In this document: positions 8,103-57,000 of the stretch, piece after piece | Layout of the letters: each line of letters opens with the position of its first letter | How positions within the stretch are numbered: the stretch's first letter is position 1 | Assembly (NCBI GenBank): GCA_026706025.1 | Contig: JAPOZO010000060.1 | Coordinates: 62,001-126,000, forward strand | Source of the DNA: Candidatus Poribacteria bacterium | Lineage (GTDB): Bacteria > Poribacteria > WGA-4E > WGA-3G | Reading direction: 5' to 3' | Length of the DNA stretch: 64,000 bases | Position numbers and translations under genes: made by a program | The notes under the pieces: model-generated | Database searches by the model: none | Seen by the model: only the letters and a program-made list of their open reading frames with translations | Told to the model about the DNA's origin: nothing

Positions 8103-8170
8103 AAACATAATGCGCTACTGAGATGGAATATCGCAAGCAAAATTCCCAGCACCTTAACAGGTTATAGACA

Positions 8171-11067: not shown

Positions 11068-12003
11068 ATGGCACTGCAACTCAAACGGGATTACCTTAAC
11101 CAGAAGGTCTTGGAACGTCTCTCCACGCTTCAATTGCACGCCCGACTCCCCATGGTAGGAAATGTATCCGGTAAACATCGGAGCCCTATTCGCGGTTCCA
11201 GTCTTGAGTTTGCCGAGTACCGTAAGTACGTTCCAGGCGATGACACACGCCGACTCGATTGGCGTGCCTATGCCCGCAATGATCGCTACTACATCAAGGA
11301 GTTTGAAGCCGATACGAACCTACGGATGTGCTTAATTGTTGATACCAGCGGTTCAATGGATTTTGAATACAACGAAAACCCCGCAGGAACCGGCGGGGAA
11401 CCCGGTTTGAGTAAACTTGACTACGCACGTCGGGTGGCAGGCACCTTAGCCTATATAGCCGCCCTACAAGGTGATGCCGTTGGACTCTACTGTGCAGGTG
11501 AAGCATTTCACATAGAAATTCCACCAAAGCGGAGTGCTACCCATCTTAGCGTTGTCCTTGATGAATTAGGAACAATGGAGGCGTCAGGCGAAACCGGGTT
11601 GGCTGACATTCTCCACGAAACCGCTGAACGTATCCCACAGAGAGCACTCATCGTCGTCATTTCAGATCTATTCATGGAACCTGAAACGGTGCGGAATTGT
11701 TTTGAACACCTGCGGTTCCGTAAACACGATGTCGCTGTATTTCATCTCATGGAGCAGAACGAACTCGATTTTGAGTTCGATCGCCCAATGCGATTCGCTG
11801 ATATGGAAGGTGGAGAACCTATACTTGCAGATCCGACTGTCATCGGTGCGCAGTACCGACGCGCAATGGAAATGTACCTCGAAAGTATGGACGAGGTGAT
11901 TCGCGACACCGAGGTTGACTATCACCGTATCTGTATACACGAAAACTATGGGGATGTATTGGCACGATTCTTATTGGGACGGACACCCAAAAGACAGAAG
12001 TGA
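11068..12003 (+). CDS. DUF58 / vWA-like protein
   Basis: A 311-residue DUF58 protein. The signature FAEYRKYVPGDDTRRLDW lies at residues 48-65 and a vWA-type MIDAS metal site (DTSGSM, residues 92-97) follows at once. DUF58 proteins are encoded next to MoxR ATPases throughout bacteria and are thought to be their binding partners. There are no membrane segments, so it probably sits in the cytoplasm or at the membrane face. A 154-base gap separates it from moxR; it holds a weak inverted repeat (GGTTTCTG/CAGAAACC) and no obvious gene. Stop at 12001-12003, followed at once by a repeat element. Confidence 0.92.
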   Translation: MALQLKRDYLNQKVLERLSTLQLHARLPMVGNVSGKHRSPIRGSSLEFAEYRKYVPGDDTRRLDWRAYARNDRYYIKEFEADTNLRMCLIVDTSGSMDFEYNENPAGTGGEPGLSKLDYARRVAGTLAYIAALQGDAVGLYCAGEAFHIEIPPKRSATHLSVVLDELGTMEASGETGLADILHETAERIPQRALIVVISDLFMEPETVRNCFEHLRFRKHDVAVFHLMEQNELDFEFDRPMRFADMEGGEPILADPTVIGAQYRRAMEMYLESMDEVIRDTEVDYHRICIHENYGDVLARFLLGRTPKRQK

Positions 12004-24123: not shown

Positions 24124-24143
24124 CTATGAAAAGGAGCAAATAG

Positions 24144-29632: not shown

Positions 29633-29652
29633 CAATTTTTAGGAGAATGACA

Positions 29653-32070
29653 ATGGGGCGAAACGTAAACAAAATACTGCTCGCGGTTTTAGTTGTAATA
29701 GTGTTATGGTTTCCAACGGTACAGGCTGAAGAAACAAAGACGCTGTTACGCTGGAAAAATGGCGGAAGCCTTCCCGGTCAACTACAGGAAAGCAGTTCAG
29801 GAACAATCCGTTGGGCATCACCATACTTTTTGGACGATCTGGTGGTTGATATCAATGTATTGAATTCAGTGGTTTTCCCGAAAACGTCTAACCCCGCAAC
29901 GGAGACCTTTCGCGTCAGCACTCTATCCGACGATGTCTGGATAGCAGACCTCATCGGTTCCGATGACAACACCTTTCTCTTCTCCAGCAAGCGGCACGGT
30001 CAATTTCGAGTAAAGCGTACGGCAGTTCGTAGCCTTGAACATCGAAACTACTCTAACCTTCTTTTTGACGGTTCCCAACTAACAAATTGGAAATCATTCA
30101 AGTCTAAGAAAGATATAGATGATCTTATACCTCTGGTTTTCCATGAGCCAAGCTATGACTGGCATCGGGATAATGAAGGTCATCCACAGACAAGTCGAAA
30201 TAAAGCAAAACTCTTCCACGCGTTCAAGTGGCCCAAACACTTTGAGATTGACTTAGAATTGGCATTTACCGGACATCCTCCGAGATTTGTTTTCGCATTC
30301 GGCAAGGACCTATATCAGGCACTACGGTTGGAAGTCTGGAGCAACAAACTCGTGGCTGTTCAAGGCACACTGTTTCAACCTGTGTTAACAATTCAGCCAG
30401 AACAACACGATCTCCATTTGCGACTGACTTATGACGAAGGGGCTGGTGTGCTAAGGGTGTTTGATTTCAATGGCAATTTGCTGCTAAGGTTAGAAGGAGT
30501 CAAGCCGACGGTCAAAGAATCAGGTCTCTATATTCAGAATCGGGGCAAAGGTCTGACGGTGCGAGTGTTAAAGGTGTACCCTCAATCGACTGCCGAGCCA
30601 ACAGCACAACAAGTAGATTTTTCTAAACCACGCGTCTATATGATGAATGGAAAAGTCGTTCAAGGCGAACTATTTGTCCAGAAAGACAGCACCTACGTGC
30701 TTGATACAGATGGAACCCAGCAAGATATTGATCTACAGCAGATCAGTCATGTCGTTCAACCGGGGACTCCATCAACAGCATTGGACGTAGCGACTGGGTT
30801 ACCCAGTCCCTACATAAAATATCCTGATGAGGTTGTTTTGCACGGCAAGGTTACACAAGTGAACTCAGAGCGTGTGATCCTCCAGACGGCTTTCGCTGAC
30901 GATCCAGTAACTTGTTCGCTCGCGGGTGCATCACGACTTCATTTTGATATAAATCGCAAAACCAACGGGACGGTTCAAAATACGGACATGTTGTTTCATG
31001 CCACCGGAAATCTACGCGGACGCGTTTTATTTCGTGAAAACCGGGGTATATTGTCCATACAATGGGAGCCTCTGGGGGCATTGAAACCCGTGCGGTTAGC
31101 AAACAACCGAGCAGTACATATCAGACGGTTTTTACAACCTACATCAAAAGTATCCCGACATCTTGACACTGCTCAGTTCCCTCACACCTTACATCTGCAG
31201 ACCGGAGAGATCTTTCCGTGTCAGATCACCGCTTATGATGGAAAGTCCATCAATTTTCAATCGCCGTTTATCAGGGCGCAGCACTTAAATTCGGCAAATA
31301 TGAAAGCACTTGAGTTCTCCAATAGAACACGCGCGCCGGGCATTGATAGAACACAACCTGAAACCGACTTTGATTCCTTGAGGGTTAAGTATAAGGAAAA
31401 TGGGGTGGTTAAAATGCAACTGGTTAGGCAGGATAAAGATGGAAAACGACTAGTATTTAGAATAAATGCCGACGACGCGAAGAAACTGGACGAAGGACAA
31501 CTGGTACGGACAGTAAAAGTAAAAGAAGTGAATCCCGGACGAGAATGGATGGAAAGCGATGCGTGGATCGGACTCATGGCCACACCGTCCAACCCCGAAA
31601 AGGATAAGTCGGTTCTGAAATTGAAACGCGCCTTAACCGTCCCGCGCTTCAACCGAGATAACCCACCGAATCATATATTAGTCGCGAAGACAGGCGATAT
31701 GAAACGTGGAAAATTCTTAGACTTTCAAGGGCAAACAATTCAGTTTGATTCAAGATTGCGGAAGTTTTCCGTCCCGATAGATCGTGTGGCACGGGTCGTT
31801 GATGTCAGTGGTGATGGTTTCCATCAGGTATCAACCACTCAAACTGAGGTTCGCGTCACATTGACCGACGGTTCAATGCTGATTTTCGAGCCGCTTGAAG
31901 CTAAAGATGGTAAACTGATAGGACGTTCATCGGTCTACGGAGAAGTATCAGTACCCGTGAGCAGCATCGAATATCTGTACTTTGGAGAGAAGGCGAAATC
32001 CTTCAAGACTGCCTTTGAAAAATGGAACATCCGTCCAGCAAAAGAACCCGCGTCCGAGGACAGTCCATAA
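29653..32070 (+). CDS. Exported protein of repeated Sm-like/SH3-like beta modules with LamG-like insert (copy 2)
   Basis: An 805-residue tandem paralogue of the gene at 27083, similar over its full length (LRWKNGGSLPGQLQESSSG; VPRFNRDNPPNHILVAKTGD; RKFSVPIDRVARVVDVSGD). The frame is open upstream to 29551, but the ATG at 29653 is the start because AGGAG lies 7 bases before it and the signal peptide (VLWFPTVQAEE) follows directly. It lacks the repeat-derived insertion of copy 1 and has its own extra segment around residues 590-635. No catalytic motif is visible. The pair lies at the end of the long same-strand block, so it could be the most distal part of the MoxR-linked region or an independent unit. 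Confidence 0.68.
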   Translation: MGRNVNKILLAVLVVIVLWFPTVQAEETKTLLRWKNGGSLPGQLQESSSGTIRWASPYFLDDLVVDINVLNSVVFPKTSNPATETFRVSTLSDDVWIADLIGSDDNTFLFSSKRHGQFRVKRTAVRSLEHRNYSNLLFDGSQLTNWKSFKSKKDIDDLIPLVFHEPSYDWHRDNEGHPQTSRNKAKLFHAFKWPKHFEIDLELAFTGHPPRFVFAFGKDLYQALRLEVWSNKLVAVQGTLFQPVLTIQPEQHDLHLRLTYDEGAGVLRVFDFNGNLLLRLEGVKPTVKESGLYIQNRGKGLTVRVLKVYPQSTAEPTAQQVDFSKPRVYMMNGKVVQGELFVQKDSTYVLDTDGTQQDIDLQQISHVVQPGTPSTALDVATGLPSPYIKYPDEVVLHGKVTQVNSERVILQTAFADDPVTCSLAGASRLHFDINRKTNGTVQNTDMLFHATGNLRGRVLFRENRGILSIQWEPLGALKPVRLANNRAVHIRRFLQPTSKVSRHLDTAQFPHTLHLQTGEIFPCQITAYDGKSINFQSPFIRAQHLNSANMKALEFSNRTRAPGIDRTQPETDFDSLRVKYKENGVVKMQLVRQDKDGKRLVFRINADDAKKLDEGQLVRTVKVKEVNPGREWMESDAWIGLMATPSNPEKDKSVLKLKRALTVPRFNRDNPPNHILVAKTGDMKRGKFLDFQGQTIQFDSRLRKFSVPIDRVARVVDVSGDGFHQVSTTQTEVRVTLTDGSMLIFEPLEAKDGKLIGRSSVYGEVSVPVSSIEYLYFGEKAKSFKTAFEKWNIRPAKEPASEDSP

Positions 32071-38311: not shown

Positions 38312-40225
38312 ATGAGCGTGAGAGCGATTCTGATCGGTTTGGTACTCGTCATCGTCCAAACGGCAATTACCCCTTATAATGACTACTATCTCCAAGGGAC
38401 CGATATTTCTGGAAACCACTTTCCTTTGGGGGCAGTATTTACGCTCATTTTTCTCACCTTAGTCGTCAACCCCATTATAAAAAAAGCATTTCCTCGGGCG
38501 GTGCTAAGTCCGGCGGAGTTGATGGTCGTATGGGTGATGATGGGCGTAGCTTCAGCGATTCCGTCGAAAGGGATGATCGGGTACTTACTACCGTATTTGG
38601 CGGCACCCGTCTATTTTGCTACACCTGAAAACGAATGGGCGGAAACGCTTCACCCGCACTTTCCGGAATGGTTAATTGTGTGGGATATGCACGCCGTTAC
38701 CGATTTCTATGAAGGGGAGTCGTCTGTTCCTTGGGTACTCTGGATAAAACCGCTCATCGTCTGGACAGTTTTCATCCTCTTACTCTACTGCCTGATTATC
38801 TGTGTATCAATTGTGATACGGAAACAGTGGATTGAACGCGAACGATTCATATTTCCGCTCGTTACGGTGCCCGTAGAAATGGTTCAACAAGCCTCAACGC
38901 ATCGTCCTCTGGATGGCTTTTTCAGGAACCCACTTGTATGGGTCGGGTTTGCGATCGCTGCCGCATTTCATCTACTCAACGGATTGCATGAGTATGTTCC
39001 CGCACTCCCGTCTATTCCGAACCGGTATGACCTATATACCCCTTTCACAGAACGTCCGTGGATTGTGATGGGGTGGTGGCCCCAATTTCGGTTCTTCCTC
39101 TATTTTTCCGTTATCGGTATAACCTATTTTCTCGCTATGGAGGTATCGTTTAGCTGCTGGTTCTTCTTTCTATTCTTCAAGTTACAGTACATCATCATTA
39201 ACGCTTTTGCGATTCCTATTAGTCCGTGGATCTCCGCGAGAGGCCAGACAATGGCTGCCTATGTCGTCATGGTTCTCGCCTTCTTGCTTAACAGCCGATC
39301 TCATATAAAAGACCTTTTGAAACGTACATTTCTGGAGTCCGCCGCCGCCACAACGATTGACGATTCAGACGAGGTGTTACCCTATAGATGGGCAGTTCTC
39401 GGAACAATTCTTAGTTTTCTACTACTTGCGGGTCTCTGTGTCTATGCTGGCATGTCGCTTTGGGTCGCTTGCAGTATTATAGCACTGTTCTTGATTGCTT
39501 CTACTGCGCTGACATGGATGGTGGTCAACGGCGGAATGTTATTGATCCAAGCACCGATGTACCCCGTGGAATACTTCGAGATTATTGCTGGCTCAAGAAT
39601 CATTAACGCAAACAGTTTGGCACTCTTAGGGTTTCAGCGGGTAATGATGCGCGACTGGGGCGGTATTTTAATGCCGAGCGTTCTACACGGATTCAAAGCG
39701 GCAGACCCACTTCGATTAAATCGAAGAAGCATTCTCGGAGCGATGGTACTTGCTATTGTTGTCGCTATCGGTGTTTCTTACGCTGCATCGTTACCCTTGA
39801 TTTATGAAAAAGGTGGTCTGAATCTGCAAAGGGGTCCATTCGTCGGATCGCCAAGATACTTCAATCATATGGTTTCCCTGATTCAGTATCCGAAAGATCC
39901 AAAATTGGGCGAGGCATATAGCATGCTCTTGGGTGCTGGCATCACCGGCTTTCTGCTGATTATGCAGCGTCAATTTATGTGGTGGCAACTTCACCCAATT
40001 GGATATGTGATGGGTGCGGTCTATTCATCCTATTTTCTTTGGTCTTGTATGTGTGTCGGCTGGTTTTTGAAGTATCTGGCACTAAAATCAGGCGGCATCG
40101 GATACTATCGGCGGTTCCGACCACTCTTCATGGGATTGATCATCGGTGAATTCGGCATCGTCGGGTTTTGGATGGTGATCGGGATATTTACCGGTGTAAA
40201 TTATCAAGGCGCATTACCCGGTTGA
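38312..40225 (+). CDS. DUF6785-like polytopic membrane protein
   Basis: A polytopic inner-membrane protein of 637 residues with a dozen or so hydrophobic segments and a conserved early block (FPLGAVFTLIFLTLVVNPII, then LSPAELMVVWVMMGVASAIP). This resembles the DUF6785/DUF6784 proteins that are abundant in Poribacteria and related phyla and distantly recall oligopeptide transporters. Function unknown; transport is the natural guess from topology. AAGGTGAG precedes the ATG at 38312 by about 10 bases. Its position directly after a sulfatase suggests uptake or export of a desulfated product, but the hairpin cluster between the two genes may separate their transcripts. Confidence 0.72.
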   Translation: MSVRAILIGLVLVIVQTAITPYNDYYLQGTDISGNHFPLGAVFTLIFLTLVVNPIIKKAFPRAVLSPAELMVVWVMMGVASAIPSKGMIGYLLPYLAAPVYFATPENEWAETLHPHFPEWLIVWDMHAVTDFYEGESSVPWVLWIKPLIVWTVFILLLYCLIICVSIVIRKQWIERERFIFPLVTVPVEMVQQASTHRPLDGFFRNPLVWVGFAIAAAFHLLNGLHEYVPALPSIPNRYDLYTPFTERPWIVMGWWPQFRFFLYFSVIGITYFLAMEVSFSCWFFFLFFKLQYIIINAFAIPISPWISARGQTMAAYVVMVLAFLLNSRSHIKDLLKRTFLESAAATTIDDSDEVLPYRWAVLGTILSFLLLAGLCVYAGMSLWVACSIIALFLIASTALTWMVVNGGMLLIQAPMYPVEYFEIIAGSRIINANSLALLGFQRVMMRDWGGILMPSVLHGFKAADPLRLNRRSILGAMVLAIVVAIGVSYAASLPLIYEKGGLNLQRGPFVGSPRYFNHMVSLIQYPKDPKLGEAYSMLLGAGITGFLLIMQRQFMWWQLHPIGYVMGAVYSSYFLWSCMCVGWFLKYLALKSGGIGYYRRFRPLFMGLIIGEFGIVGFWMVIGIFTGVNYQGALPG

Positions 40226-40362
40226 TTTTCGTTTTTTATTCAATTAAAATCATACGAATATTCAGTTTTGCGGCGTACTTGAAGAAACACTTTCTTCGCA
40301 TTGGATTTTAGCGTTTGCAAAAACCCCAAATGCGACCTGCATTTTTCGTTTTTTTTAAGAAT

Positions 40363-40395
40363 TATGCACGTCATCCCCCAAAAATTGTGTCATTA
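40363..40395 (+). promoter_or_regulatory. Candidate ECF-type promoter of the C39-like lipoprotein gene
   Basis: TATGCACG (40363-40370) and GTGTCATTA (40387-40395) with 18 nt between ATGCACG and GTCATTA, the same motif as at 9641, 58153 and 63277. The -10-like half lies 22 bases before the ATG at 40418; AAAAGGGGG (about 40400) in between is the ribosome binding site, so the leader is very short. Confidence 0.5.
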
Positions 40396-40417
40396 ATTTT
40401 AAAAGGGGGATAAAATT

Positions 40418-41098
40418 ATGCAACGCAATAAGTTTTCTTCAAAAAATGTTCGCCGTCCCTTGATTGCGGGTTTTTCATATTCAACTGTGCCTGTCTGTAT
40501 TGTATTGTTGGTTTTCGTGGTTTTGACAATTAATTGCGGTTCGCCGTCCAAAACACAGTACTACGTCCCTGAAATGGCAGCTACTACTGCTGCGAAGGCG
40601 ATGCCAACAGATTCAAGGAACACCGATAGTAGTTTGCCAAAAGCTGCTGCTGTCAATTTACGCGAGTTGCCTTACGTCAGGAATGTTTTTAAAGAGATTC
40701 CGGACATTAGTAGAGGTGGACTTGACGATTTCTACTTGACGACGCGCGGGAAAGCACAACATGTTGCTATTGTCTCCAACTGTTCGTTTGATGTCCTAAA
40801 GGCATTTGTCGCGAAAGGTTGGGCACCTATTGTAATGGTTCAATTGCAAGGACGGAGACCGGAAATTTTGCCGATGTCTCGTTACGATGACCGATCTGGA
40901 GAGGTGTCACTTCAACACCTTGCTAATTTTGGTGAGCGTCGTGTAAGTTACAAGAATTTCGAGAGAGATTGGACGAGTTCACGAAATAAATGTGTTTTAA
41001 TTACGCCACAGCAACTCTCAGAAGCAACTGTTCGGAAAGTCCTGTCAAGATATCTACCTATAGGAACATTTGAAGGGATTCGTGTGAAAAGCCGTTAA
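40418..41098 (+). CDS. Lipoprotein with degenerate C39-like domain
   Basis: A 226-residue protein with a long N-terminal hydrophobic segment ending in LTINCGSPS, a plausible but non-canonical lipobox (Asn at -1). Residues 85-220 resemble the second half of papain-fold C39-like peptidase domains: a helix and strand KAFVAKGWAPIVMVQL, then SRYDDRSGEVSLQHL and the ERRVSYKNFERDW segment. The active-site Cys and His expected in C39 enzymes are not evident (the His position reads PEILPM), so it is probably a non-catalytic relative. This is my own pattern reading and uncertain. A candidate sigma-dependent promoter lies immediately upstream. Confidence 0.55.
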   Translation: MQRNKFSSKNVRRPLIAGFSYSTVPVCIVLLVFVVLTINCGSPSKTQYYVPEMAATTAAKAMPTDSRNTDSSLPKAAAVNLRELPYVRNVFKEIPDISRGGLDDFYLTTRGKAQHVAIVSNCSFDVLKAFVAKGWAPIVMVQLQGRRPEILPMSRYDDRSGEVSLQHLANFGERRVSYKNFERDWTSSRNKCVLITPQQLSEATVRKVLSRYLPIGTFEGIRVKSR

Positions 41099-41116
41099 TA
41101 CCAAATTGTGTTTTAA

Positions 41117-41806
41117 AGCGAACTTAGTTTCTTTTCTGGAGCATACGGAAAAGAACCGATTAACCTCACCCAACATCTATCTGACGACGGTGGCCCCGCG
41201 TGGTCTCCGGATGGGAAACGAATTGCTTTTTCATCATTTCGGGATGGGAATCCAGAAGTTTATGCGATGAACGCCGACGGTACAAACCTAACACGACTCA
41301 CCGATCATCCAGGCGCGGATATCTATCCGGCGTGGTCTCCAGATGGAAAACAGATTACATTTGAATCCACTCGTGTTTTTGGATCGGACATCTTTGTGAT
41401 GAACACTGATGGTACGAACATAAGACGGGTTACTACCTCACGATTTCAGGACACAGATCCAGCGTGGTCTCCTGATGGCACACAGATCGCTTTTGCGTCT
41501 TGGCGCAACAAAATCTGGGACATCTACATAATAAATGTGGACGGCAAAGCGGAGACGAATCTAACGGATAGCAGATCCGAGGATACACATCCGACGTGGT
41601 CGCCGGACGGTCAACGGATCGCCTATTCATCAAAGCGTGACGGTCTTTACGGTATATACGTGATCAACGCTGACGGTAATGGCGGTTTTGCCATTGCTGA
41701 GGACTTACAATTGGCACTGACTCCAAATTGGTCCCCAAAACCCTTAGCTATTTCTCCTAAAGGGAAGTCGTCAACGCTGTGGGGAACTCTCAAAATTAAA
41801 AAATAG
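41117..41806 (+). pseudogene. PD40/TolB-like propeller gene that has lost its 5' end
   Basis: Five PD40 blades are encoded, each with the WSPDGxxIAF...IYVMNADG pattern. The frame runs from 41117 (a TAA lies at 41114-41116) and its first half-blade (INLTQHLSDDGGPAWSPDG) is already propeller sequence, yet there is no ATG, GTG or TTG before 41267, which falls in the middle of a blade. A complete protein would begin with a signal peptide and further blades. The 5' part is therefore missing, and translation from 41267 would give only 179 residues. TolB-like propellers act in the periplasm. This copy is probably inactive. Confidence 0.7.
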
Positions 41807-41817
41807 ACACAAAGGAT

Positions 41818-42687
41818 CTAAGATATACCAAAGTGGTCGGATCCAGGCATTGGGTGTTCTTGCGCGACTTCTGCATTAATTTCGACACCCAATCCAGGCT
41901 GCTCTGGAACCACAAATGCGTTATCTTGCATGAGCGGTTCCTTAGAAATTGCGAGATCCCACCGCCAATCCACCTGATCCGCATGATATGGAAGTTCCAT
42001 CACAATGAAATTTCGCACAGCAGCACAGACATGCGCCGTTGCAGTCATCCCGATGGGCGATGTGATGTTATGCACCGCAAACGGCATGTAATACAGACCA
42101 GCCAAATCCGCAATTTTCTTCCCCTCCAGTATTCCACCCGTTCCAGATACATCAACGTGGAGCATATCACAGGTTTGCGTCTGGATCAGTTCTCTGAAAT
42201 CGTCTCGACGAAATAGGAACTCACCCGTACAGATTGGGATAAATGTAGCAGAATTTACCTTCGCCATCGCTTCGACATTATCGTTCGGCACGAGGTCTTC
42301 CAAGAACATCAAATCAAACGGCTCTAAACGCTCAGCAAGTTTCATCGCCGAGTGGACACTGAATAGGCTATGACAGTCGATGCTAATATCAATACCATCG
42401 CCGACTGCCTCGCGTGCGGCGGCAACCAACGCTGTCATTTTCTGTAATTCTGCTGTGTTCAGTTCCCAGTTGACTGCATCCTGTTTAAGTTCGTTTGCGG
42501 AGTTGTCGGTGTCGAACTTAATTGCTTGGTAGCCATCAGCAACGCCTCCTTTAGCGCGCTGTGCCCAACCCTCTGGCGTGTTTCCACGTCCATGTCCAAC
42601 ATCGGCATAAAGTCGAATCCGATCTTGATACTTCCACCCAACATCGGTTTCCAAGACAGTATTTCTTGTAATTTTATTATAAACCAA
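41818..42687 (-). pseudogene. Truncated duplicate of an enolase-superfamily dehydratase gene
   Basis: The frame from 42687 (TTG, no ribosome binding site) runs to TAG at 41818. From about the position of residue 106 of the full gene at 44321-45454 onward it is nearly identical (about 17 differences in about 270 residues by my reading), but it lacks the N-terminal capping domain. Homology at the DNA level stops at about 42644, where CCACCCAACA is the last shared word, next to a one-base deletion. The catalytic Lys, Asp, Glu and His positions are still present, although Pro in EDPVP is Leu. Without the capping domain the product should not bind substrate, so I call it a pseudogene. Confidence 0.75.
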
Positions 42688-42773
42688 CTAAACTTACAAT
42701 CAAATCGTTATTAATGTCTATTTTTTCGGAAGCAATCTATCGAAAATCTTCACGGTTTTCCAGAGGAGATTCT

Positions 42774-44324
42774 ATGAATCGAAAAAAAATTGCGATTATC
42801 GACCTGGCCGCTAACAACAGCCGTCGTTCTTTATACGGACGTGTTATGTATCCAAACTTCGCAAGTATCATGCCTCAAGCAATAGGGGTCTGGTGTAGAG
42901 AAGAAGGGCATGATGTTACATTCATGTGCTATACCGGTTGTGAAGATTTGATTGAAGATTTGCCAGACGATCTGGATCTTGCAATTATAGGGACTTTCAC
43001 ACTCGGCGCTCAACTTGCCTATGCTCTAAGCAACCACCTTCGCTCGCAAGGTGTTATCACTGTATTAGGGGGTCCACACGCGCGATGCTATCCGGAGGAT
43101 GCCCAGCAATATTTCGATTACGTCCTCGGTTTTACTGATAAAGCCGTCATCCGAGAAGTCCTATCTGATTGTTCAAAATATCGCCCCATCGGCACCTACA
43201 TCTCAGCGAAACAACAACCGATGGTACTCCCGAGCGTCCGTGAGCGTTGGTCCTTTATTGAGCCGATATTGCAAAAAGCGTGGCTTTTCAAAAGCGTTTC
43301 GATGTTAGGAAGTCTTGGATGCCCGTATACTTGTGCATTCTGTATAGACGCGAATATTCCGTATCAACCGCTCGATTTTAATGTCCTCAAGGACGATCTC
43401 CGTTTTCTCTTGCATCAACTCAAACATCCTATAGTCGCATGGCATGACCCGAATTTCGGCGTTCGATTCGACGACTACATGGGCGCGATTGAAGAAGCGG
43501 TACCGCCAAATAGCATCCGTTTCATCGCCGAAAGCAGTTTGTCGCTTTTATCCGAGCCCCATCTCAAACGCCTCAAGAAGAACGGATTTAAGGCAATCCT
43601 ACCCGGTATTGAGTCGTGGTTCGATCTCGGAAACAAATCAAAAACTGGGTCAATGATAGGCATGGAGAAAGTCCGAAAGATCTCTCATGAAGTCAACACC
43701 ATCTTGAGATATATCCCTTATGTTCAAGCCAACTTTGTATTCGGACTTGATACCGACCAAGGCGCAGAGCCTTTTGAATTGACGAAACGATTTGTCGATA
43801 TGACACCGGGCGTATATCCAGCCTACAATATCGTTACCGCTTATGGAAGAGCCGCATCCCTTAATCTCGACTACCAACGTGCCAATCGTGTCATACCCAT
43901 TCCATTTCATTTCATGAACAATTTATGCACGAACGTAAAACCCAATAATTACGCATGGACCGAATTCTACACATACATGATTGATTTAAACAATCATGCA
44001 TTCTCATGGAAATCGATTGCAAATCGTTGCAGAGTAAATAAGGAACCGATTCCACGGTGGACGAATGTTATAAGAGGCCTGGAAGCGAGAGTTGGTAAAA
44101 TGAAGATGAATAGAGAAATGCTTCAGCAATTTGAGAGTGATACCAAGTTCCGAGCTTACTTTGAACAAGAAACGACAGAATTGCCACAGTTTTATATCAA
44201 TCAAATACAACAAGACCTCGGGGCACTGTGGAAATGGCTTCCAACTGGCGCCCTGTCTTACGATCCGAATGCCTATCTCAAGTCTGAGGAAAGCAAGGGG
44301 TTAACCATAAAAGCAAAAGACTAA
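42774..44324 (+). CDS. B12-binding-domain radical SAM protein
   Basis: A 516-residue protein. Residues 1-150 form a cobalamin-binding Rossmann-like domain (DLAIIGTFTLGAQLAYALSN; VLGGPHARCYPEDA), though no DxHxxG ligand motif is visible. The radical SAM core follows, with the CxxxCxxC cluster-binding motif CPYTCAFC (Cys183, Cys187, Cys190) and a GIE(S) segment (LPGIESW) further on. Such enzymes methylate or rearrange carbon skeletons. The product is unknown. The frame is open from 42714, but AGAGGAGA before the ATG at 42774 sets the start. Its stop (44322-44324) overlaps the stop of the dehydratase gene on the other strand, and it is flanked on both sides by copies of the dehydratase sequence. 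Confidence 0.88.
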   Translation: MNRKKIAIIDLAANNSRRSLYGRVMYPNFASIMPQAIGVWCREEGHDVTFMCYTGCEDLIEDLPDDLDLAIIGTFTLGAQLAYALSNHLRSQGVITVLGGPHARCYPEDAQQYFDYVLGFTDKAVIREVLSDCSKYRPIGTYISAKQQPMVLPSVRERWSFIEPILQKAWLFKSVSMLGSLGCPYTCAFCIDANIPYQPLDFNVLKDDLRFLLHQLKHPIVAWHDPNFGVRFDDYMGAIEEAVPPNSIRFIAESSLSLLSEPHLKRLKKNGFKAILPGIESWFDLGNKSKTGSMIGMEKVRKISHEVNTILRYIPYVQANFVFGLDTDQGAEPFELTKRFVDMTPGVYPAYNIVTAYGRAASLNLDYQRANRVIPIPFHFMNNLCTNVKPNNYAWTEFYTYMIDLNNHAFSWKSIANRCRVNKEPIPRWTNVIRGLEARVGKMKMNREMLQQFESDTKFRAYFEQETTELPQFYINQIQQDLGALWKWLPTGALSYDPNAYLKSEESKGLTIKAKD

Positions 44325-45454
44325 GATATACCGAAGTGGTCGGATCCAGGCATCAAGTGTTCCCGCGCGACATCTGCGTTGATTTCGACACCCAATCCGG
44401 GCTGCTCCGGCACCACGAATGCGTTATCTTGCATGAGCGGCTCCTCAGAGATTGCGAGATCCCAACGCCAATCCACCTGATCGGCGTGATATGGAAGTTC
44501 CATCACGATGAAGTTTCGCACCGCAGCGCAAACGTGTGCTGTCGCTGTCATCCCGATGGGCGATGTGATATTATGCGCCGCAAACGGCATATAATACAAG
44601 TCTGCCAGATCCGCAATCTTTTTCGCCTCAAGTATCCCCCCTGTGCCAGATACATCAACATGGAGCATATCACAGGATTGTGTCTGGATCAGTTCTCTGA
44701 AACCGTCTCGACGAAACAGGAATTCACCCGTACAGATAGGGACAGACGTTGCAGAACTTACCTTCGCCATCGCTTCGACATTATCGTTCGGCACGGGGTC
44801 TTCCAAGAACATCAAATCAAACGGCTCTAAACGTTCAGCGAGTTTCATCGCCGAGTGGACACTGAATAGACTATGACAGTCGATGCTAATATCAATGCCA
44901 TCGCCAACTGCCTCGCGTGCGGCGGCAACCAACGCTGTCATTTTCTGTAATTCTGCTGTGCTCAGTTCTCGGTTGACTGCATCCTGTTTAAGTTCGTTTG
45001 CGGAGTTGTCAATGTCAAACTTAATTGCTTGGTAGCCATCAGCAACGCCTTCTTTAGCGCGCTGTGCCCAACCTTCTGGTGTGTTTCCGCGTCCATGTCC
45101 AACGTCAGCATAAAGTCGAATCCGATCCCGATATTTTCCACCCAACAGCTGATAGACCGGTACACCCAGACTTTTGCCGAGCAGATCCCACAGGGCAGTC
45201 TCTATCCCGCCGATCGCCGATAGACCCATTGCATATCGGTTGCTCGCCGCACCAATCAGTCGGTGGTAGAGCGGTTCTATGTTTCTCGGATCTGCGCCGA
45301 CGAGTCTGTTCTTGAATTGCAGAACAATCTCAGCGATTCCTGATCCAGGATGTGCCTCACCTATCCCTGTCAATCCCGCGTCGGTTTCAATCTGGACGTA
45401 GTTCCACTGTTTGTAGCCCTTTAGCGTCATCGCTTTCACATCGGTAATTTTCAC
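44321..45454 (-). CDS. Enolase-superfamily sugar acid dehydratase (mandelate racemase/muconate lactonizing family)
   Basis: A cytoplasmic enzyme of 377 residues: N-terminal capping domain (about 1-110), then the beta/alpha barrel. Candidate catalytic and metal residues are Lys145 (AIKFDID), Asp192 and His194 (IDCHS), Glu218 (FLEDP), Glu244 (TGEFLF) and His294 (AAHN). The D-x-H pattern and the SPIG segment after the His resemble galactonate/mannonate-type dehydratases, so a sugar acid is the likely substrate. The start is GTG at 45454 with AAAGGAGA upstream, preferred over the ATG at 45502. The 3' two thirds are duplicated at 41817-42644 as a broken copy. Confidence 0.9.
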   Translation of the reverse strand: MKITDVKAMTLKGYKQWNYVQIETDAGLTGIGEAHPGSGIAEIVLQFKNRLVGADPRNIEPLYHRLIGAASNRYAMGLSAIGGIETALWDLLGKSLGVPVYQLLGGKYRDRIRLYADVGHGRGNTPEGWAQRAKEGVADGYQAIKFDIDNSANELKQDAVNRELSTAELQKMTALVAAAREAVGDGIDISIDCHSLFSVHSAMKLAERLEPFDLMFLEDPVPNDNVEAMAKVSSATSVPICTGEFLFRRDGFRELIQTQSCDMLHVDVSGTGGILEAKKIADLADLYYMPFAAHNITSPIGMTATAHVCAAVRNFIVMELPYHADQVDWRWDLAISEEPLMQDNAFVVPEQPGLGVEINADVAREHLMPGSDHFGIS

Positions 45455-45567
45455 GCCTATTCTCCTTTGTCTATCGGTTGAGAAATTCAATAGATATTGC
45501 ATCTGCTAAGCATTCATGATAACATGTATATTGAGATTGTGCAACAACGACGGAAGGAGATTAGCCA

Positions 45568-46473
45568 ATGACAGACCAAGAAATCAAAACCGCTTATGAG
45601 CGTGACGGGTATGTGGTGGTCAAAGACATTATTGATAACCGAGATTTAGATCCCATCCGTGACTTCATCAAGGCAAAAGTTGATGCCTATAGCGATGAAT
45701 TGTATACGGAAGGTAAACTATCGTCGCGCTACGAGGACGAATCGTTTGAACGACGCTATGCCGCGATCTGTGAAGAGTTAGATATCCTGCCTCGCAACTG
45801 GTCTTTTGGTATGTTCGGACGCGAATTTTATGACCTCTACAACCTCCCCGGTGTTCTCAATGTGCTCCGCCTTCTCTTGGGTTCTGAAGTCTCGAATATC
45901 GGTACGCCAGCGTTACGGACAAAACTTCCCAGAAGCGTGATTACCTCGTTTCCGTGGCATCAAGACAGTCAATATCTCGACCAATCAACCATCGGAAAGA
46001 AGGAAAAACACACCGCAGGTCTCCACATGGTTACGGTGTGGGTACCGCTGGTCGAAGCGACAGTTGAAAATGGATGTTGCTGGGTTATTCCCGGCAGTCA
46101 CCGTTGGGGTTTATTAGACGGTGCGCGTGGCACGGATTCAAACGTCCGAATGGAGGAAGATGTCGAGGCGCGTGGTACACCCGTGCCTATCCCGCTTGAA
46201 CCCGGTGGTGCCTTGTTCATGTCGAATCTTTGCGTCCATACCAGCAAAGTGAACACAACACAGAAATCCCGATGGAGTATCGACTTCCGCTACTTTCCCA
46301 CACCCGATCGCGCTGATTTGACTGTCGAGCAGCGTGAAGCTGCCGAATTCGTGAAAGACAAAGCACTGACAGGTGGTAGAGTGCCACTTGTTGTGCTCAC
46401 TGAAGGGCACAAGCCGACTTGGGAGGAATGGGAAACACAAGTCTCGGCGCAGCAAGCGCGTAGATCGGGTTGA
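45568..46473 (+). CDS. Phytanoyl-CoA dioxygenase (PhyH)-family Fe(II)/2-oxoglutarate oxygenase
   Basis: A cytoplasmic 301-residue oxygenase with the iron triad His131-x-Asp133 (WHQD) and His224 (CVHTSKVN) and a following Arg235 (KSRWSIDFR) that would hold 2-oxoglutarate. The jelly-roll blocks (TVWVPLVEATVENGCCWVIP; LEPGGALFMSN) are typical. The substrate is unknown; this family is strongly expanded in Poribacteria-like genomes and covers many small-molecule hydroxylations. GAAGGAGA precedes the ATG at 45568 by 9 bases. Divergent from the dehydratase gene across 113 bases, so the two may share a regulatory region. A long hairpin follows the stop. Confidence 0.92.
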   Translation: MTDQEIKTAYERDGYVVVKDIIDNRDLDPIRDFIKAKVDAYSDELYTEGKLSSRYEDESFERRYAAICEELDILPRNWSFGMFGREFYDLYNLPGVLNVLRLLLGSEVSNIGTPALRTKLPRSVITSFPWHQDSQYLDQSTIGKKEKHTAGLHMVTVWVPLVEATVENGCCWVIPGSHRWGLLDGARGTDSNVRMEEDVEARGTPVPIPLEPGGALFMSNLCVHTSKVNTTQKSRWSIDFRYFPTPDRADLTVEQREAAEFVKDKALTGGRVPLVVLTEGHKPTWEEWETQVSAQQARRSG

Positions 46474-47196: not shown

Positions 47197-48864
47197 TCAT
47201 TGAGCGATCAGCAGTGCCACCCGATGCGGATCAGTAGTGGACGGATAATATATAAGGAGGTCCTGCTTGTTGTCCTTATTGAGGTCCACCAGTCGAGCGT
47301 TTTGTTCGTTGTTAGGCATAGCAACTGCCACCTTTTGAGGTGTCCGTGCTAACAGTTCTGGTCCCGGTACACCGAGAAAGACGTGCAACTCTTTCCAGTT
47401 CTTTCCAACCAATAAATCTGAGCGTCCGTCACCGTTCACATCGCCAAGCAGTAGGACTGGAAAGAAGACCTTATCTGTCTCGAAGAGATCTAAGTTCGGC
47501 CTGATTTTACGAATAGTAGCGGGTTTGTGGGAGTGCCTATCGCCTCCGATGCGATAGAATTCGAGATCTATTGCAATCGACTTGCCGAGCATCGCCCGGC
47601 TCATCCCAATAAGCCCAGTCTTTACGTCCTTGAAAAGAATGTCGGTCTTACCATCTCCATCAAAATCTTGGAACCACTGCGACGAATAGCCCCACGGCTG
47701 CAACCCGCCAGCGGTCCCTCGCGGTCGAATTGTCGTACTGACATCCCGCGCGAACACCGTTCCATCCGGTGTTGACGTGCCGAAATGCACTTCGTACAGG
47801 CTACGCTGTTTCGCAAGACTTCGTCCTTCTAACGCGTGGATCACCAAATCAGCAATATTGTCGCCGTTCAGATCTTGGAACGTGTGCAGCACCCGCCGCT
47901 TCGTGTTCTCTCTGAAGCCGAACATGAGCGAGAACATATTCTCGTCCTTGAAATCAAAAGCGATCGAATAGGCACCGTCAGTGTCAAATGGGATGTCAAC
48001 AGCGAAGGTTTTCGCCGCCGAGGAAAACATCCCGCGAGCATCCTGACGGTAAACGTCAAAATGATCCGCGTTCCAGAACACGAGATCGCCGCGTCCATCT
48101 TGGTCGTAGTCTATCTGGTGGATACGACTCAGATACCAATGGACAGTTAAGGGCGTTATCCCTACCTCGCGGTAACTGCGAGTATCGTCCAAGGCAGTCT
48201 CGTCGAGAAAGGGGTCGGGCGGTCCGAGTTTTATCGGGTTAGTGAATGAACCATCGCGCAATTGCGTGGCTATCCAGAAGCCATCAATGTCTGGAACTAC
48301 TAAGTCGTCAAGACCGTCACGATTTACGTCTCGACTGATGTCAACATAGGGGATCCCACTTTCACCCGTCGCGTTGTAGTTCGTAGTGACTTTGACCAAT
48401 ACACGTTCCACCGCCGAATCCGGATCAAACCAGTTCAGACGACCCTGCTCGTAGGTGATTAAGCGATCGCGCCCACCGATGTTTGCGACATCAACGAACA
48501 ACACTTTAGAACGCAGCGGCGCGTCAAGTTCGGATACCCAAGTGCCCTCACTGAACGCGTAAATGTGCAAGTGTCGGTTCTTATTTTTATCTATATTTAC
48601 CACAGCAAGTTCAGCGAAATCTCCACCAAGAAAAAACCCTGTCAAAACCGTCTGGTGTTTCGCTGTGCCGGTGACAACCTCGTGCTGCCCGAAAGTAAAT
48701 TCCGTGGCAGTGTGCTGTATCGGAGCAGCACCTTTGCCAAACAGACCTGAGCATCCCGATAGAAAGACACTAAAAGCCAGTATAGAGAGCAGACTTCGTC
48801 GAGAATGTCGTGTGCACTCAGCTGCGGAAATCCAGCGTTTGCGGGATGCGTTTCGCTTTTCCAT
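47197..48864 (-). CDS. FG-GAP/VCBS-repeat propeller lipoprotein
   Basis: A 555-residue protein with a lipobox LSGC (Cys38) after a hydrophobic segment and a beta-propeller of FG-GAP repeats carrying calcium-binding loops: DVNRDGLDDL, DYDQDGRGDL, DLNGDNIADL, DFDGDGKTDI, DVNGDGRSDL, DLNKDNKQDL. Such propellers bind ligands or other proteins at the cell surface. The start is ATG 48864 with AAAGGAGGA upstream; the frame is open to 48882. The promoter carries a candidate TetR operator shared with the paralogue and the tetR gene. It sits just upstream of the outer-membrane-protein gene. Confidence 0.82.
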   Translation of the reverse strand: MEKRNASRKRWISAAECTRHSRRSLLSILAFSVFLSGCSGLFGKGAAPIQHTATEFTFGQHEVVTGTAKHQTVLTGFFLGGDFAELAVVNIDKNKNRHLHIYAFSEGTWVSELDAPLRSKVLFVDVANIGGRDRLITYEQGRLNWFDPDSAVERVLVKVTTNYNATGESGIPYVDISRDVNRDGLDDLVVPDIDGFWIATQLRDGSFTNPIKLGPPDPFLDETALDDTRSYREVGITPLTVHWYLSRIHQIDYDQDGRGDLVFWNADHFDVYRQDARGMFSSAAKTFAVDIPFDTDGAYSIAFDFKDENMFSLMFGFRENTKRRVLHTFQDLNGDNIADLVIHALEGRSLAKQRSLYEVHFGTSTPDGTVFARDVSTTIRPRGTAGGLQPWGYSSQWFQDFDGDGKTDILFKDVKTGLIGMSRAMLGKSIAIDLEFYRIGGDRHSHKPATIRKIRPNLDLFETDKVFFPVLLLGDVNGDGRSDLLVGKNWKELHVFLGVPGPELLARTPQKVAVAMPNNEQNARLVDLNKDNKQDLLIYYPSTTDPHRVALLIAQ

Positions 48865-48893
48865 GTTTATCCTCCTTTCCAATTTTCATTACA

Positions 48894-48924
48894 TTAACAT
48901 AGATAAATAAATGAACAGTGTTAA
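48894..48924 (-). promoter_or_regulatory. Promoter and TetR-type operator of the FG-GAP lipoprotein gene
   Basis: On the minus strand TTAACA, a 17-nt spacer and TATGTT form a sigma-70-like promoter. The -35 lies in the operator TTAACACTGTTCA (48912-48924, one change from the 13-bp palindrome TTAACACTGTTAA). The whole 31-base block is almost the same as at 50701-50731. Confidence 0.6.
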
Positions 48925-48952
48925 CATACAAGCAAAAAAATAAGCAATAGAT

Positions 48953-50671
48953 TTATTGGGCGATCAGTATCCTCACTCGATGCGGCTCAGTTCCGGGAGG
49001 CTTTCTCGGGGCACCGTGAGCATCTCGTAACGTGAATGGGTGATGCATGAGGATATCCTGCACCCCGTCCTTGTTGAGGTCAACCAACCAGGTGTACTCC
49101 TCATCGTTGGGAGCAGCGATCGCCACTCTCTGAGGCTGCTGAGCGAATATTTCCGGTCCCGGCACACCGACAAAGACGACCATGATCCGCGGGTGATCCG
49201 CGAGGAGCAGGTCTGAGTGACCGTCGCCGGTCACATCCCCGATGCGTAAAGTCGTGTTGAACGCGCGCGGGTACTTCTTTTCAGTGTTTCGGCTCTCGTG
49301 CGTCGCTCCGCGAAGCACGATGTCCAGTGGCACCCACCCCGGTTCGCGATGGCTCGGCACACCATCCAACGCGATTCCGCGGGTGGTGTTGGGTCTGTCG
49401 GGATAACGGTCTCCTTCCATTTGGTAGAATTCGAGACCCAGCCCGACATCATCACCCATGAACCCCTTGATGCTCTTCCAGAGACTACCATGGAGGTGCT
49501 CAAGATCAATGGTTGTGATCATCAGATCGACCTTGCCATCGCCATTGAAGTCCTGCCGGTCCATCCCAAGCTGGATTCTTTCGTCCGACTCGAACGCGAT
49601 GTTAACATCTTGTCCGAACACAATGCCGCCATTTGGTGCTGGCGCGCCGAAATGTACTTCGTAACTGGAGTGCTTGTTGGAGATATTCTTGCCCGAAAGT
49701 TTGAAAATCACCAAGTCGGCGACACCGTCGCCGTTCAGGTCTGCCAACGAGTGCAGCACCCTCCCTGTCATATCTCCGGCGGCGAGTAAGGAGAGCCGGT
49801 CCGAGTCGAATGCCACATCGATCGTGAAGGTCTTGGTCCTTGAGGTAAACAGGCCTCGCTCGTTTTGGAGATGAACCTTGAAGTGGTCCTCGTTCCAGAA
49901 CGCCAAGTCAGTACGACCATTTCTGTCGTAGTCAATTTCGTGAACACGGCTCTGAGACCAAGGGTCGTATCGATATCCATCTGCACCGCGGATCCTCGCC
50001 ATTTCGGTGGATGGACCAATCTTCACCTTCTCGGCGAACGTACCGTCGCTCATCTGAATGAACACCCAGAAGCCATCAGAGTCCGGCACCACCAAGTCAT
50101 CACGAGCATCTCCATTCACGTCCCGAGTGATGTCCACATGCGGGATTTCGCCGCTGCGAGGCGGCTTGAAGTTGGAAGCAACCACCACCAATGGGCGTTC
50201 CGTTGCCGAGTCGGGATCAAACCAGTTCAACCGACCCTGCTTGTAGGTGATTAAACGATCGCGTCCACCAACGTTTGCAACATCAACAAACAACACTTCA
50301 GAACGCAGCGTTGTGTCGACTTTCGGTACCCAAGTGTTGTCGCCGAACGCGTAGATGCGCAAATGCTGGTTGTCGTTCTCGTCGATGTGCAGGACAGCAA
50401 GTTCAGCGAAATCACCATCAAGCAGGAATCCCGTCAAAACCGTCTTGCGTTTCGCAGTACCGATTTTGACTTCATACTGCTCGAAAGTGAATTCCGCGGT
50501 AGCAGGCATCGTCTGTTCGACCGCTTCGCCAAGCAGACCTGCGTATCCGGATAGAAGGACACCAAAAACCAGTATAGAGAACAGGTTTCGTCGGAACTGC
50601 CCTATGCGTCCGGCTACTGAGCCTGGCTTTGCGGAAAGAAAGCGTTTGTTGGATAGGTTTCGCTTTTTCAT
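48953..50671 (-). CDS. FG-GAP/VCBS-repeat propeller protein, paralogue that lost its lipobox cysteine
   Basis: A 572-residue paralogue of the gene at 47197 with the same layout: N-terminal hydrophobic segment, then FG-GAP repeats with calcium loops (DVNGDARDDL, DYDRNGRTDL, DLNGDGVADL, DFNGDGKVDL, DVTGDGHSDL, DLNKDGVQDI). Where the paralogue has LSGC, this one has LSGY (Tyr43, codon TAC instead of TGC, at 50543-50545), so it cannot be lipidated there and may stay anchored by the signal segment or be released. AAAGGAGAC precedes the ATG at 50671. The promoter and operator match the paralogue; the tetR gene ends 107 bases upstream. Confidence 0.82.
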   Translation of the reverse strand: MKKRNLSNKRFLSAKPGSVAGRIGQFRRNLFSILVFGVLLSGYAGLLGEAVEQTMPATAEFTFEQYEVKIGTAKRKTVLTGFLLDGDFAELAVLHIDENDNQHLRIYAFGDNTWVPKVDTTLRSEVLFVDVANVGGRDRLITYKQGRLNWFDPDSATERPLVVVASNFKPPRSGEIPHVDITRDVNGDARDDLVVPDSDGFWVFIQMSDGTFAEKVKIGPSTEMARIRGADGYRYDPWSQSRVHEIDYDRNGRTDLAFWNEDHFKVHLQNERGLFTSRTKTFTIDVAFDSDRLSLLAAGDMTGRVLHSLADLNGDGVADLVIFKLSGKNISNKHSSYEVHFGAPAPNGGIVFGQDVNIAFESDERIQLGMDRQDFNGDGKVDLMITTIDLEHLHGSLWKSIKGFMGDDVGLGLEFYQMEGDRYPDRPNTTRGIALDGVPSHREPGWVPLDIVLRGATHESRNTEKKYPRAFNTTLRIGDVTGDGHSDLLLADHPRIMVVFVGVPGPEIFAQQPQRVAIAAPNDEEYTWLVDLNKDGVQDILMHHPFTLRDAHGAPRKPPGTEPHRVRILIAQ

Positions 50672-54042: not shown

Positions 54043-57000
54043 TCACACTGCTTTGATAACCACAATCGTCATATCGTCGTTCTGCTGAGCGTCACCAGAA
54101 AAATCACGGACATCGCTAATAATCGCATCTATCACCGCTTCTGCGCTCACTGTTTCGTCCATTCCTTTGATAAGATCAACTAAACGGTCAGCCTCCATAT
54201 AGAATCGGTCAGGGTTATGCCTTTGAGGTGCTTCAGCAATGCCATCGCTGAAAAGGATAATCGCATTCCCAGGTTTTAGGTCAATAGGGGGTGTTTCTTG
54301 ATATTCAGAAAATCGAAAAGCACCCAATGGTGTTCCATCTATCGGAAGTTCTTCAACATCGTTTTCACGATGTTTGATAATAGGATAAGGGATTCCGGCG
54401 TTGGCATATCTAAACGTCTTATCCGTTGGGTCAATGGTCAATATCGCCATCGCACAATTGGTGTATCTTTGAAATCGAGGATAAAGATTTTGGTTCAGTG
54501 CCTGCAACATTTGAGATGGAGATACCCCCGACTTCGCTTCTGAATGGAGCACCCCAGAAGATAGAACGGCATTCATTGCGCCTTTCATACCTTTGCCGGT
54601 AACATCTGCCAACACAATGGCGAGCGTGCCGTCGCTGAGATGGATATAGTCAAAAAAATCCCCACTGACGGTGCGGGCGGAGATGCAAACGCCTGCAACC
54701 TCAAGTCCTGGAACTTCAGGTGCGGTTTGCGGTATCAACCCCATCTGCATCTCTTGTGCATCAGCGAGTTCGGAAACTGCTTCCCGTTGATAGGCTAAAA
54801 CCTGTTGACGCTGGTGGTAATAGCGGTAGACAAGAATACCACAAAACAACAGTAAAACCACAATCGCGCCACCTAAAGGATAGAGAATCCATCCATTTTG
54901 GTGCCACGGCAATACAACTGTCAACGTCAGGTTTGCAGGAGCAGAGTAGTTTAGGTCTCGGTCAATCGCAACGACCTCAAAAGTATAAGTTCCCGGTTTG
55001 TCAAAACTGATGTTGAACGTATCCGATAGTGTCGGTTTGTGCCAATCGGAGTCAATCTCTTTGATGCGAACCCGATACTGTCGTTTTTCTTTCACGGTTT
55101 TGAAGTCAATACTGCTGTACTGGATAGTTACACGCGTATTGGTGGTAATGTCTTCGATTGTCTCAAGAGAACCAGTTTGTGCAGATGTTTTGTGGGTTTG
55201 AACTGAAACGATACGCACACGCGGTGGAACCCGATTCGGATTGTATTGGGTCACCCCATCAAACGTTGCAAACCAGAACCTCCCCTCCGAATCTTGGCAA
55301 ATTCCCAAAACCCGATTACCTATGAGTCCATCTCGTGTATCTAAAGATACCCATGAGGTGCCATCATATTGAGAGACACCACCGCTGAACGTTCCAATCC
55401 AGAGAGATCCCTCTTCGGCCTCGTAAATTGAGGACACATCGTTTTGTACGAGTCCATCATGGGTCGTGAAATTAACAAGTTGATCGCCATCATATCGAAA
55501 GACACCGCTGCCTCGGGTTCCAAACCAGAGGAATCCTTCTCGGTCTTGATGGATCGCCCATACAGAGTCGGATGCAAGTCTGGCATTAGTCGTAAAGTTG
55601 ACGAACTTTTCACCATCATATCGGGAGACACCGCCACCCCGGATTCCAAACCAGAGGAATTCTTCTCGATCCTGATAAATTGAGATGACATCATTGTGTG
55701 TGAGTCCGTCATCAATAGTGAAGTTGACGAACTTTTCACCATCGTATCGAGAGATCCCACCACCGGTTGTTCCAAACCAGAGGAATCCCTCTCGGTCTTG
55801 ATGGATCGCCCATACGGAGTTAGAGGCGAGTCCGTCATCGGTAGTAAAGTTGACGAACTTTTCACCATCGTATTGGGAAACACCACCGCTGTTTGTTCCA
55901 AACCAGAAGGCTCCCTTTTGATCCTGATAAATTGAGATGATGTCATTTTGTGCGAGTCCATCATCGGTTGTAAAGTTGATAAACTCATTGCCATCATATT
56001 GACTAATTCCGCTGTCTGTTCCGAACCAGATGGATCCCTCCCAGTCTCGGTAAATTGTGTAAATAGTGTTGCTCACAAGACCATCAGCAGTAGTGAAGTT
56101 AATAAATCCGCTGCTATCGTATTGGCTGATTCCGTCACCCGAGGTTAAAAACCAGAAGCCCCCTTCTCTGTCTTGAAAAATATCCCATATATGGTTAGAT
56201 GCGAGGCCATCAGTGGTAGTGAAGTTGACGAACTTTTCACCATCATATCGAGAAACACCACCACCGTTTGTTCCAAACCAGAGGAATTCATTTCGGTCCT
56301 CATGGATCGCCCAGATAGAATTGTGAAGGAGTCCATCAGTGGTTGTAAAATTAACAAACTGATCATTATCGTATCGAGAAATTCCGTCGTTTGTTCCGAA
56401 CCAGAGGAATCCTCCTTGGTCTTCATGGATCGCCGGGACAGTATTGTTAGCGAGGCCATCAGTGGTAGTGAAGTTAACAAACTTTTCGCCATCGTATTGA
56501 GAGATGCCACCGTTTGTTCCAAACCATAAGTGTCCGTCTCGGTCTTGGTGGATCGCCAAGGTGTAGTTAGATATAAGTCCATCGTCAATAGTGAAGTTAA
56601 CAAACTTTTCGCCATCGTATTGAGAGATGCCATCGCTTGTTCCAAACCATAAGTGTCCGTCTCGGTCTTGGTGGATCGTCAAAACAACGTTAGCTACAAG
56701 TCCATCGTCGGTAGTGAAGTTGACGAACTTTTCACCATCATATCGAGAGACCCCATACTCCAAGGTACCGAACCATAAAAATCCGTCTCGGTCTTGGTGG
56801 ATTGTCCAGACAGAGTCACCTGCAAGTCCATCGTCGGTGGTGAAGTTGACGAACTTTTCACCATCATATCGAGAGACCCCCCCTGTGTCAGTTCCGAACC
56901 AAAGGAAACCCTCCCGGTCCTGATAAATCCTCCGGACATGGTTATGTCCCAATCCATCAAGGTAAGTATAGTGCTTCCATGTCCCATGTTTGAAAGGTGG

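Follow-up and report, generated by a model that had tools for sequence, protein, structure and literature searches.

In the genome of a Candidatus Poribacteria bacterium (GCA_026706025.1), a gene encoding a predicted cobalamin-type radical SAM protein lies between a complete dehydratase gene, here termed D, and a second, 5′-truncated copy of it, D′. The analyzed stretch, referred to as the window, comprises 64,000 nucleotides of contig JAPOZO010000060.1 (positions 62,001–126,000), and all positions given below are those of the window. In our judgement there is about an even chance that one recombination event, with a homologous end inside D and an illegitimate other end, brought in the radical SAM gene together with a scrap of an insertion sequence (IS) and left D′ behind.

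Layout of the locus

D (44321–45502, minus strand) is a complete MR/MLE (enolase-superfamily) dehydratase gene with a 393-amino-acid frame that contains the Pfam domains MR_MLE_C (E = 6.5e-60) and MR_MLE_N. D′ (41818–42644, minus strand) contains MR_MLE_C only. Alignment of 41810–42643 with 44314–45147 in the same orientation gave 90.3% identity over 835 columns, and the protein match of D′ (E = 1.3e-171) places the repeat far beyond chance. Both copies extend from the dehydratase stop codon (CTAAGATATACC, plus strand) to the word CCACCCAACA, and D′ lacks the first ~120 codons of the gene. The radical SAM gene (42774–44324, 516 amino acids) is located on the plus strand, and its stop codon overlaps that of D by 4 nucleotides (44321–44324); as start codon, ATG 42774 is likelier than 42714 because a length of 516 amino acids matches the relatives. 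The original prediction, made from the letters of this stretch, had proposed direct repeats formed by a full and a 5′-cut dehydratase gene, a radical SAM gene on the opposite strand between them, and an end of the cut copy at CCACCCAACA, all of which was confirmed. Its estimate of about 17 residue differences was of the right order; in our own alignment of the ~274 shared codons, the count was 19 replacement codons in addition to 54 synonymous ones. The longest run identical between D and D′ is 54 bp, and recombination between the repeats that would delete the radical SAM gene is possible.

The best curated (NCBIfam) model for D was galactonate dehydratase, which likens it to the D-galactonate dehydratase-like members of the mandelate racemase subgroup. 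D differs from these in its score, 256 bits versus a cut-off of 311 bits; D′ differs further by the loss of its N-terminal domain.

An IS remnant at the truncated end

When 42600–44340 was compared at the DNA level with 38 genomes of the genus, 42646–42723 proved to be a dispersed repeat, found at seven places in genome G018, two in G005, five in G011 (four at contig starts), one in G030, and two in G027. The complete element in G018 (locus L121, about 530–1578) is bounded by inverted ends that match each other (TAGACATTATAAC...) and contains two frames in which the domains HTH_Tnp_4 and DDE_Tnp_4 were detected, from which we take it to be an IS5-family element. The window holds only its right end (42646–42720, plus strand, 75 bp; 86% identity over 78 bp to the copies of the relatives), which is A+T-rich (26% G+C). 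The terminus abuts the 5′ region of the radical SAM gene, whose start codon follows after ~55 bp, and the interior side is fused to D′ at codon ~120 (42644/42646), giving the junction order D′, IS scrap, radical SAM gene. At 42641–42646, D and the IS share a microhomology of about 2–4 bp, read by eye, which is no better than chance. No further copy of the IS was found in the assembly of the window's genome, a kind of assembly from which repeats are easily lost. A composite transposon was rejected, as there is no IS sequence at 44309–44324 and no second IS copy in the assembly.

Comparison with related genomes

In a search of 60 genomes, the window's included, D was counted at E ≤ 1e-120 and was present in 30, as a single copy in 29 and as two copies in the window's genome only. 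No match to the radical SAM gene was observed near D at any of the 29 other D loci, for which flanks of up to 1.5 kb were fetched; the arrangement is thus unique to the window's genome among the genomes searched. This is the outcome that had been anticipated for loci with a single dehydratase copy, and the opposing scenario, in which relatives always keep the arrangement with an intact second dehydratase, did not materialize in any of them.

A PhyH gene adjoins D in 18 of the 20 fetched D loci, and a DUF6785 gene follows on the other side in 17, at distances between 41 bp and several kb; for two of the three loci missing DUF6785, the contig or the fetched sequence ends there. D thus belongs to the resident genes of the genus, where it occurs as a single copy in the ancestral order DUF6785–D–PhyH. 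In the window, the order from left to right is the gene for a DUF6785/DUF6784 membrane protein (38312–40225, plus strand), a 226-amino-acid frame, the 3′ part of a PD40 beta-propeller gene (41118–41806, plus strand), D′, the IS remnant, the radical SAM gene, D, and the PhyH dioxygenase gene (45568–46473, plus strand; E = 2.7e-27), the first and the last being the retained neighbors. The 5′-truncated PD40 gene ends next to D′; it is 93.4% identical to its counterpart in G004 over 654 columns and 88.7% to that in G006. In G004 its frame is intact (332 amino acids) and is followed by genes of 914 and 420 amino acids before D; both are missing at this place in the window's genome, as is a further G004 gene of 999 amino acids between DUF6785 and D. 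Across the genus, the gap between DUF6785 and D is as short as about 41 bp in G008 and elsewhere reaches several kb, with sigma-factor/propeller genes inside it. The stretch 40225–44320 is therefore a naturally variable spot in the genus that has been eroded in the window's genome. The earlier suggestion of an insertion that duplicated its target was right in that a lineage-specific insertion with a partly duplicated neighbor is present; the cut itself is a join to an IS scrap and not a clean target-site duplication.

Decay and ancestry of D′

The 19 replacement differences were polarized with 26 relatives as reference: 15 are derived on the D′ side, one on the D side, and three are unclear. 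Most of the changes in D′ hit residues that are fixed in all 26 relatives (e.g. G122W, R125Q, P236L, G267D, D301G, and L383P). D′ is a decaying pseudogene.

In a tree of alignment columns 360–745 (codons about 120–250), D and D′ were sisters with a support of 0.995 (0.997 with a tighter cut). In the tree of the remainder, D′ grouped with G004/G029 (0.988; 0.981 with the tighter cut) and D with G032/G014 (0.868). A scan for a switch of ancestry in D′, based on 29 informative sites with two sites of the opposite kind (TB_FA) left out, placed it between codons 199 and 221 (maximum chi-square 15.4, permutation p = 0.0004). D′ is a mosaic, its first third being sister to D and the rest nearest to the alleles of two other species. 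The adjoining PD40 block, too, is most similar to that of G004. None of the sites uniting D and D′ is unique to the window's genome among all 26 relatives.

The nonsynonymous (dN) and synonymous (dS) divergences between D and D′ (dN/dS 0.033/0.433) are puzzling for a pseudogene from birth and are expected if most of D′ arrived already diverged and functional. Since most of D′ represents another species' type of allele, the 10% divergence of the copies is no clock for the event, and the original conclusion that their divergence makes it not very recent had to be abandoned. A simple target duplication with neutral decay of the whole of D′ was rejected, the ratio of 54 synonymous to 19 replacement codons being far from neutral. 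The synonymous excess sits mostly in the imported part of D′. The 5′ third (codons 120–199) has nine synonymous and six replacement codons by hand count, and for this third alone a simple target duplication with neutral decay may apply. Duplication followed by decay, which had been offered as an alternative account, is correct insofar as D′ decayed after it was cut; it is not the whole account. Derived replacements in D′, counted by hand, number six in codons 120–199 (80 codons) and nine in codons 221–383 (163 codons), and from this similar density on both sides of the switch, D′ was probably assembled and lost its function close in time.

A proposed recombination event and its alternatives

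In the proposed event, the incoming molecule would have carried the IS scrap, followed by the radical SAM gene and then by a D gene of which no less than the 3′ two thirds were present, and it would have come from a donor cell of a related species. Homologous recombination inside D would leave D complete and set the radical SAM gene against the stop codon of D, and an illegitimate join of the broken IS interior to a D gene cut at codon ~120 would leave D′. Two routes could give this same product. The linear fragment may have been circularized by end-joining, followed by a single crossover with the resident D to yield D′–IS part–radical SAM gene–D, or one-ended (homology-facilitated illegitimate) recombination may have taken place. 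As the complete D touches the insert and the D′ cut and the IS break lie at arbitrary points, a molecule broken at two random points fits the observed layout. The illegitimate junction is seen directly at 42644; the homologous one is placed solely by the ancestry switch.

According to a study in E. coli (PMC3240628), linear DNA with one homologous end usually gives a partial duplication of the target and not a deletion, and circularization with a single crossover is named there as a fate of such DNA. The product described there resembles the window's locus in having foreign DNA between a complete and a truncated gene copy with one non-homologous junction; it differs in that it stems from a lacZ experiment, whereas the locus studied here is read as an old scar, in which the truncated copy is mosaic and the junction contains an IS scrap. 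One homologous and one illegitimate junction, with an insert of ~1–2 kb, are also what homology-facilitated illegitimate recombination would share with the event proposed here.

Several observations weigh against a single recombination event. No donor with the order IS–radical SAM gene–D was found in the 38 genus genomes. A pure single crossover predicts a donor/host difference across the whole overlap, whereas D and D′ are sisters in their 5′ thirds, and a conversion tract must be added to the crossover model. Close to the stop codon, D and D′ are once more united by three sites (3/4 versus 0/13, Fisher p = 0.006, post hoc), a pattern that speaks for an imported tract in the interior and less for one crossover. 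Homology-facilitated illegitimate recombination usually leaves a matching deletion and 3–10 bp of microhomology, according to PMC3240628; here, a duplication was left, and the ~2–4 bp at the junction are at or below that range. Finally, the species relations of the nearest relatives are poorly resolved, and host and donor can therefore not be named.

A stepwise origin, which we consider possible though doubtful, would begin with a tandem duplication of D, between the copies of which the radical SAM gene and the IS landed at different times; an IS-internal deletion then removed the 5′ end of the left copy, and an allele tract from a relative later replaced part of D′. The bases that D and D′ share versus their nearest relatives in the 5′ part, and possibly in the last ~50 bp, are in line with this series, as is the instability of the DUF6785–D region, which is eroded here (PD40 gene cut, the 999- and 914-amino-acid genes of G004 missing). 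However, it requires at least four events, among them a landing of the radical SAM gene exactly at the stop codon of D, its intermediate was encountered in no genome, and the similar density of decay in both parts of the mosaic suggests that little time passed between its assembly and its truncation.

That the radical SAM gene was cargo of the IS, moved by one-ended or composite transposition with the dehydratase fragment as collateral, is very improbable. The IS terminus does lie directly upstream of the gene, and in G018 a homologue lies between frames that we presume to be transposase-like and RRXRR-like; yet an IS end is missing at the other border (44309–44324), the assembly contains no second copy, the terminus 55 bp before the start codon looks like an ordinary IS insertion upstream of a gene, and genomes G001 and G009 carry the gene with a different upstream sequence. 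Least credible of all is a chimeric assembly from mixed DNA: the 6.27-Mb genome comprises 103 contigs with an estimated contamination of 4.96%, but the scar is aged, with an IS remnant 86% identical to other copies and replacements of D′'s own at fixed residues, whereas a chimera would join unmutated pieces.

Distribution of the radical SAM gene in the genus

The inserted module is defined by the sequence that the window has in common with G001 and G009 at their radical SAM loci (42719–44309, plus strand, 86% DNA identity). Compared with G001, the radical SAM gene has a dN of 0.061 and a dS of 0.669 (dN/dS about 0.09), the dS of D versus G001 being 0.92; the gene is intact and under selection. 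Its GC3 (G+C content at third codon positions) is 0.458, compared with a mean of 0.492 for 37 long frames (standard deviation 0.042). The base composition of the insert, which had been suggested as a check, thus gave a weak signal, and the idea of an alien composition was rejected.

In G001 and G009, the radical SAM gene is situated between an enolase-type and a Gfo/Idh gene, and the sequence upstream of it is unlike that in the window. In G001, this upstream sequence (locus L082, 9741–9940) matches two kinds of short dispersed repeats that occur in many genomes of the genus. The corresponding site is present on contig C13 of the window's genome without the radical SAM gene. A hand count over the 38 genomes, of which four were unjudgeable, supplemented by an alignment of seven gene-free sites, gave the two flanks at most 350 bp apart in at least 22 genomes, including the window's, and 0.4–4.7 kb apart in at least ten, with the radical SAM gene in at least two. 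As the flanks are adjacent in most of the genus, the empty C13 site most likely represents the old state, and a jump of the gene from C13 to the window was rejected. At a second site, between what we take to be ROK-kinase-like and phosphoheptose-isomerase-like genes, the radical SAM gene was present in three of the 38 genomes (G005, G011, and G029) and the flanks were adjacent without it in 30, five being unjudgeable (hand count). A third locus could not be judged for emptiness, its right flank not being conserved. A second version of the gene, 60–64% identical, was found at other sites in other members of the genus. None of the 13 other genus members with the gene was found to have it at D; in ten of them D is on another contig or far off, and in three it is below the threshold. 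From its presence at scattered sites that are empty in most genomes, the radical SAM gene has been gained or lost repeatedly.

An enolase-superfamily gene is the immediate neighbor of the radical SAM gene at two loci (the window and that of G001/G009, L082) and is two genes away in G004, G032, and G027 (L087, L092, and L099). Because genomes of this kind contain several tens of enolase-type matches (41 matched stretches in the window's), this adjacency is only a post hoc hint and possibly due to chance. In G018 (L091), the radical SAM homologue lies between frames at 7807–8706 and 10924–11910, which we take to be transposase-like and RRXRR/IscB-like, respectively. Carriage by phages was rejected, since viral contigs yielded only two relatives, both weak (32% and 24% identity), as was carriage by plasmids, where eight of 72,556 records matched, one of them over the full length (Gemmatirosa kalamazoonensis, 55%). 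We regard it as very improbable that the gene wanders as a nomadic unit, spreading by a route of its own or being repeatedly selected beside dehydratases.

The radical SAM protein family

The three cysteines of the CxxxCxxC motif (C183, C187, and C190) are invariant in 21 of 21 sequences, and mean column identity is 76%. The scores for Pfam Radical_SAM (23.1 bits, cut-off 29.5), B12-binding (20.9 bits, cut-off 32.1; 26.8 for the relative at L207), and TIGR04013 (25.2 bits, cut-off 251) missed every curated cut-off, the family being divergent; such a cut-off is a rule for labelling and not a property of an enzyme. A structure model had a mean pLDDT of 75 and a pTM of 0.81, with the cluster loop poorly predicted. 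A sequence search of the PDB with the protein gave no match. A fold search listed radical SAM enzymes first, namely TokK, AprD4, CysS, OxsB, and TsrM (E = 4e-8 to 1e-5, TM-scores of 0.42–0.52 normalized to query length). Of these, AprD4 is not known to contain cobalamin. The likeness consists of an N-terminal Rossmann-like domain followed by a radical SAM barrel with the CxxxCxxC motif; the identity in the fold alignment is as low as 11–14%. With the CxxxCxxC motif placed in a modelled partial TIM barrel, the protein is predicted to be a member of the radical SAM enzymes. Most likely it works as a radical SAM enzyme of the cobalamin type and came to stand at D by an accident of recombination, without functional pairing.

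A pattern scan of the GTDB gave 412 confirmed loci. The best 80, which were kept, encode proteins with 60–74% identity from Acidobacteriota, Ignavibacteriota, Bacteroidota, Gemmatimonadota, Calditrichota, and others. A tree built from 89 sequences showed clustering largely by phylum, and the window sequence grouped with G001/G009 and then with a member of the Poribacteria from another family. The family is widespread, strongly conserved, uncharacterized, and predicted to be of the cobalamin type; listings of the literature on Poribacteria and radical SAM contained nothing pointing to it. Its gene neighbors are mostly unrelated across 97 loci. Among the enzymes that recur as partners, the most frequent is another B12/radical SAM protein, which contains DUF4070 and is present at ten of the 97 (L181, L184, L185, L188, L195, L197, L207, L230, and L238; further off at L177) and in most of these located directly downstream on the same strand. 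The two proteins possibly form a two-enzyme pathway.

Other features of the window

Neither tRNA genes nor Rfam families were found in the window, which thus gives no sign of integration at a tRNA gene. Three neighboring pairs of similar long frames (22393–25835, 27083–32070, and 47197–50671) look like tandem duplications, the last pair being FG-GAP-like. A 1347-amino-acid frame (54043–58086) contains ~11 copies of a 126-bp unit (array at 55487–56877) with propeller-like repeats, and its C-terminal part is presumably SpoIIE-type phosphatase-like.

Significance

As a mechanism of single-gene uptake, the process is known and ordinary; the example is unusually legible. It represents a readable fossil of the acquisition of a single gene in an uncultured phylum, in which the insert, the illegitimate junction, the homologous side, the imported tract, and the decaying remnant can be told apart. 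It also serves as a warning that an insertion is not necessarily dated by how far its two flanking copies have diverged. Should an unknown process move the radical SAM gene, or should it be selected repeatedly beside dehydratases, it would represent a novel type of mobile or modular metabolic gene. The part most worth biochemical work is the uncharacterized family of predicted cobalamin-type radical SAM proteins to which it belongs.

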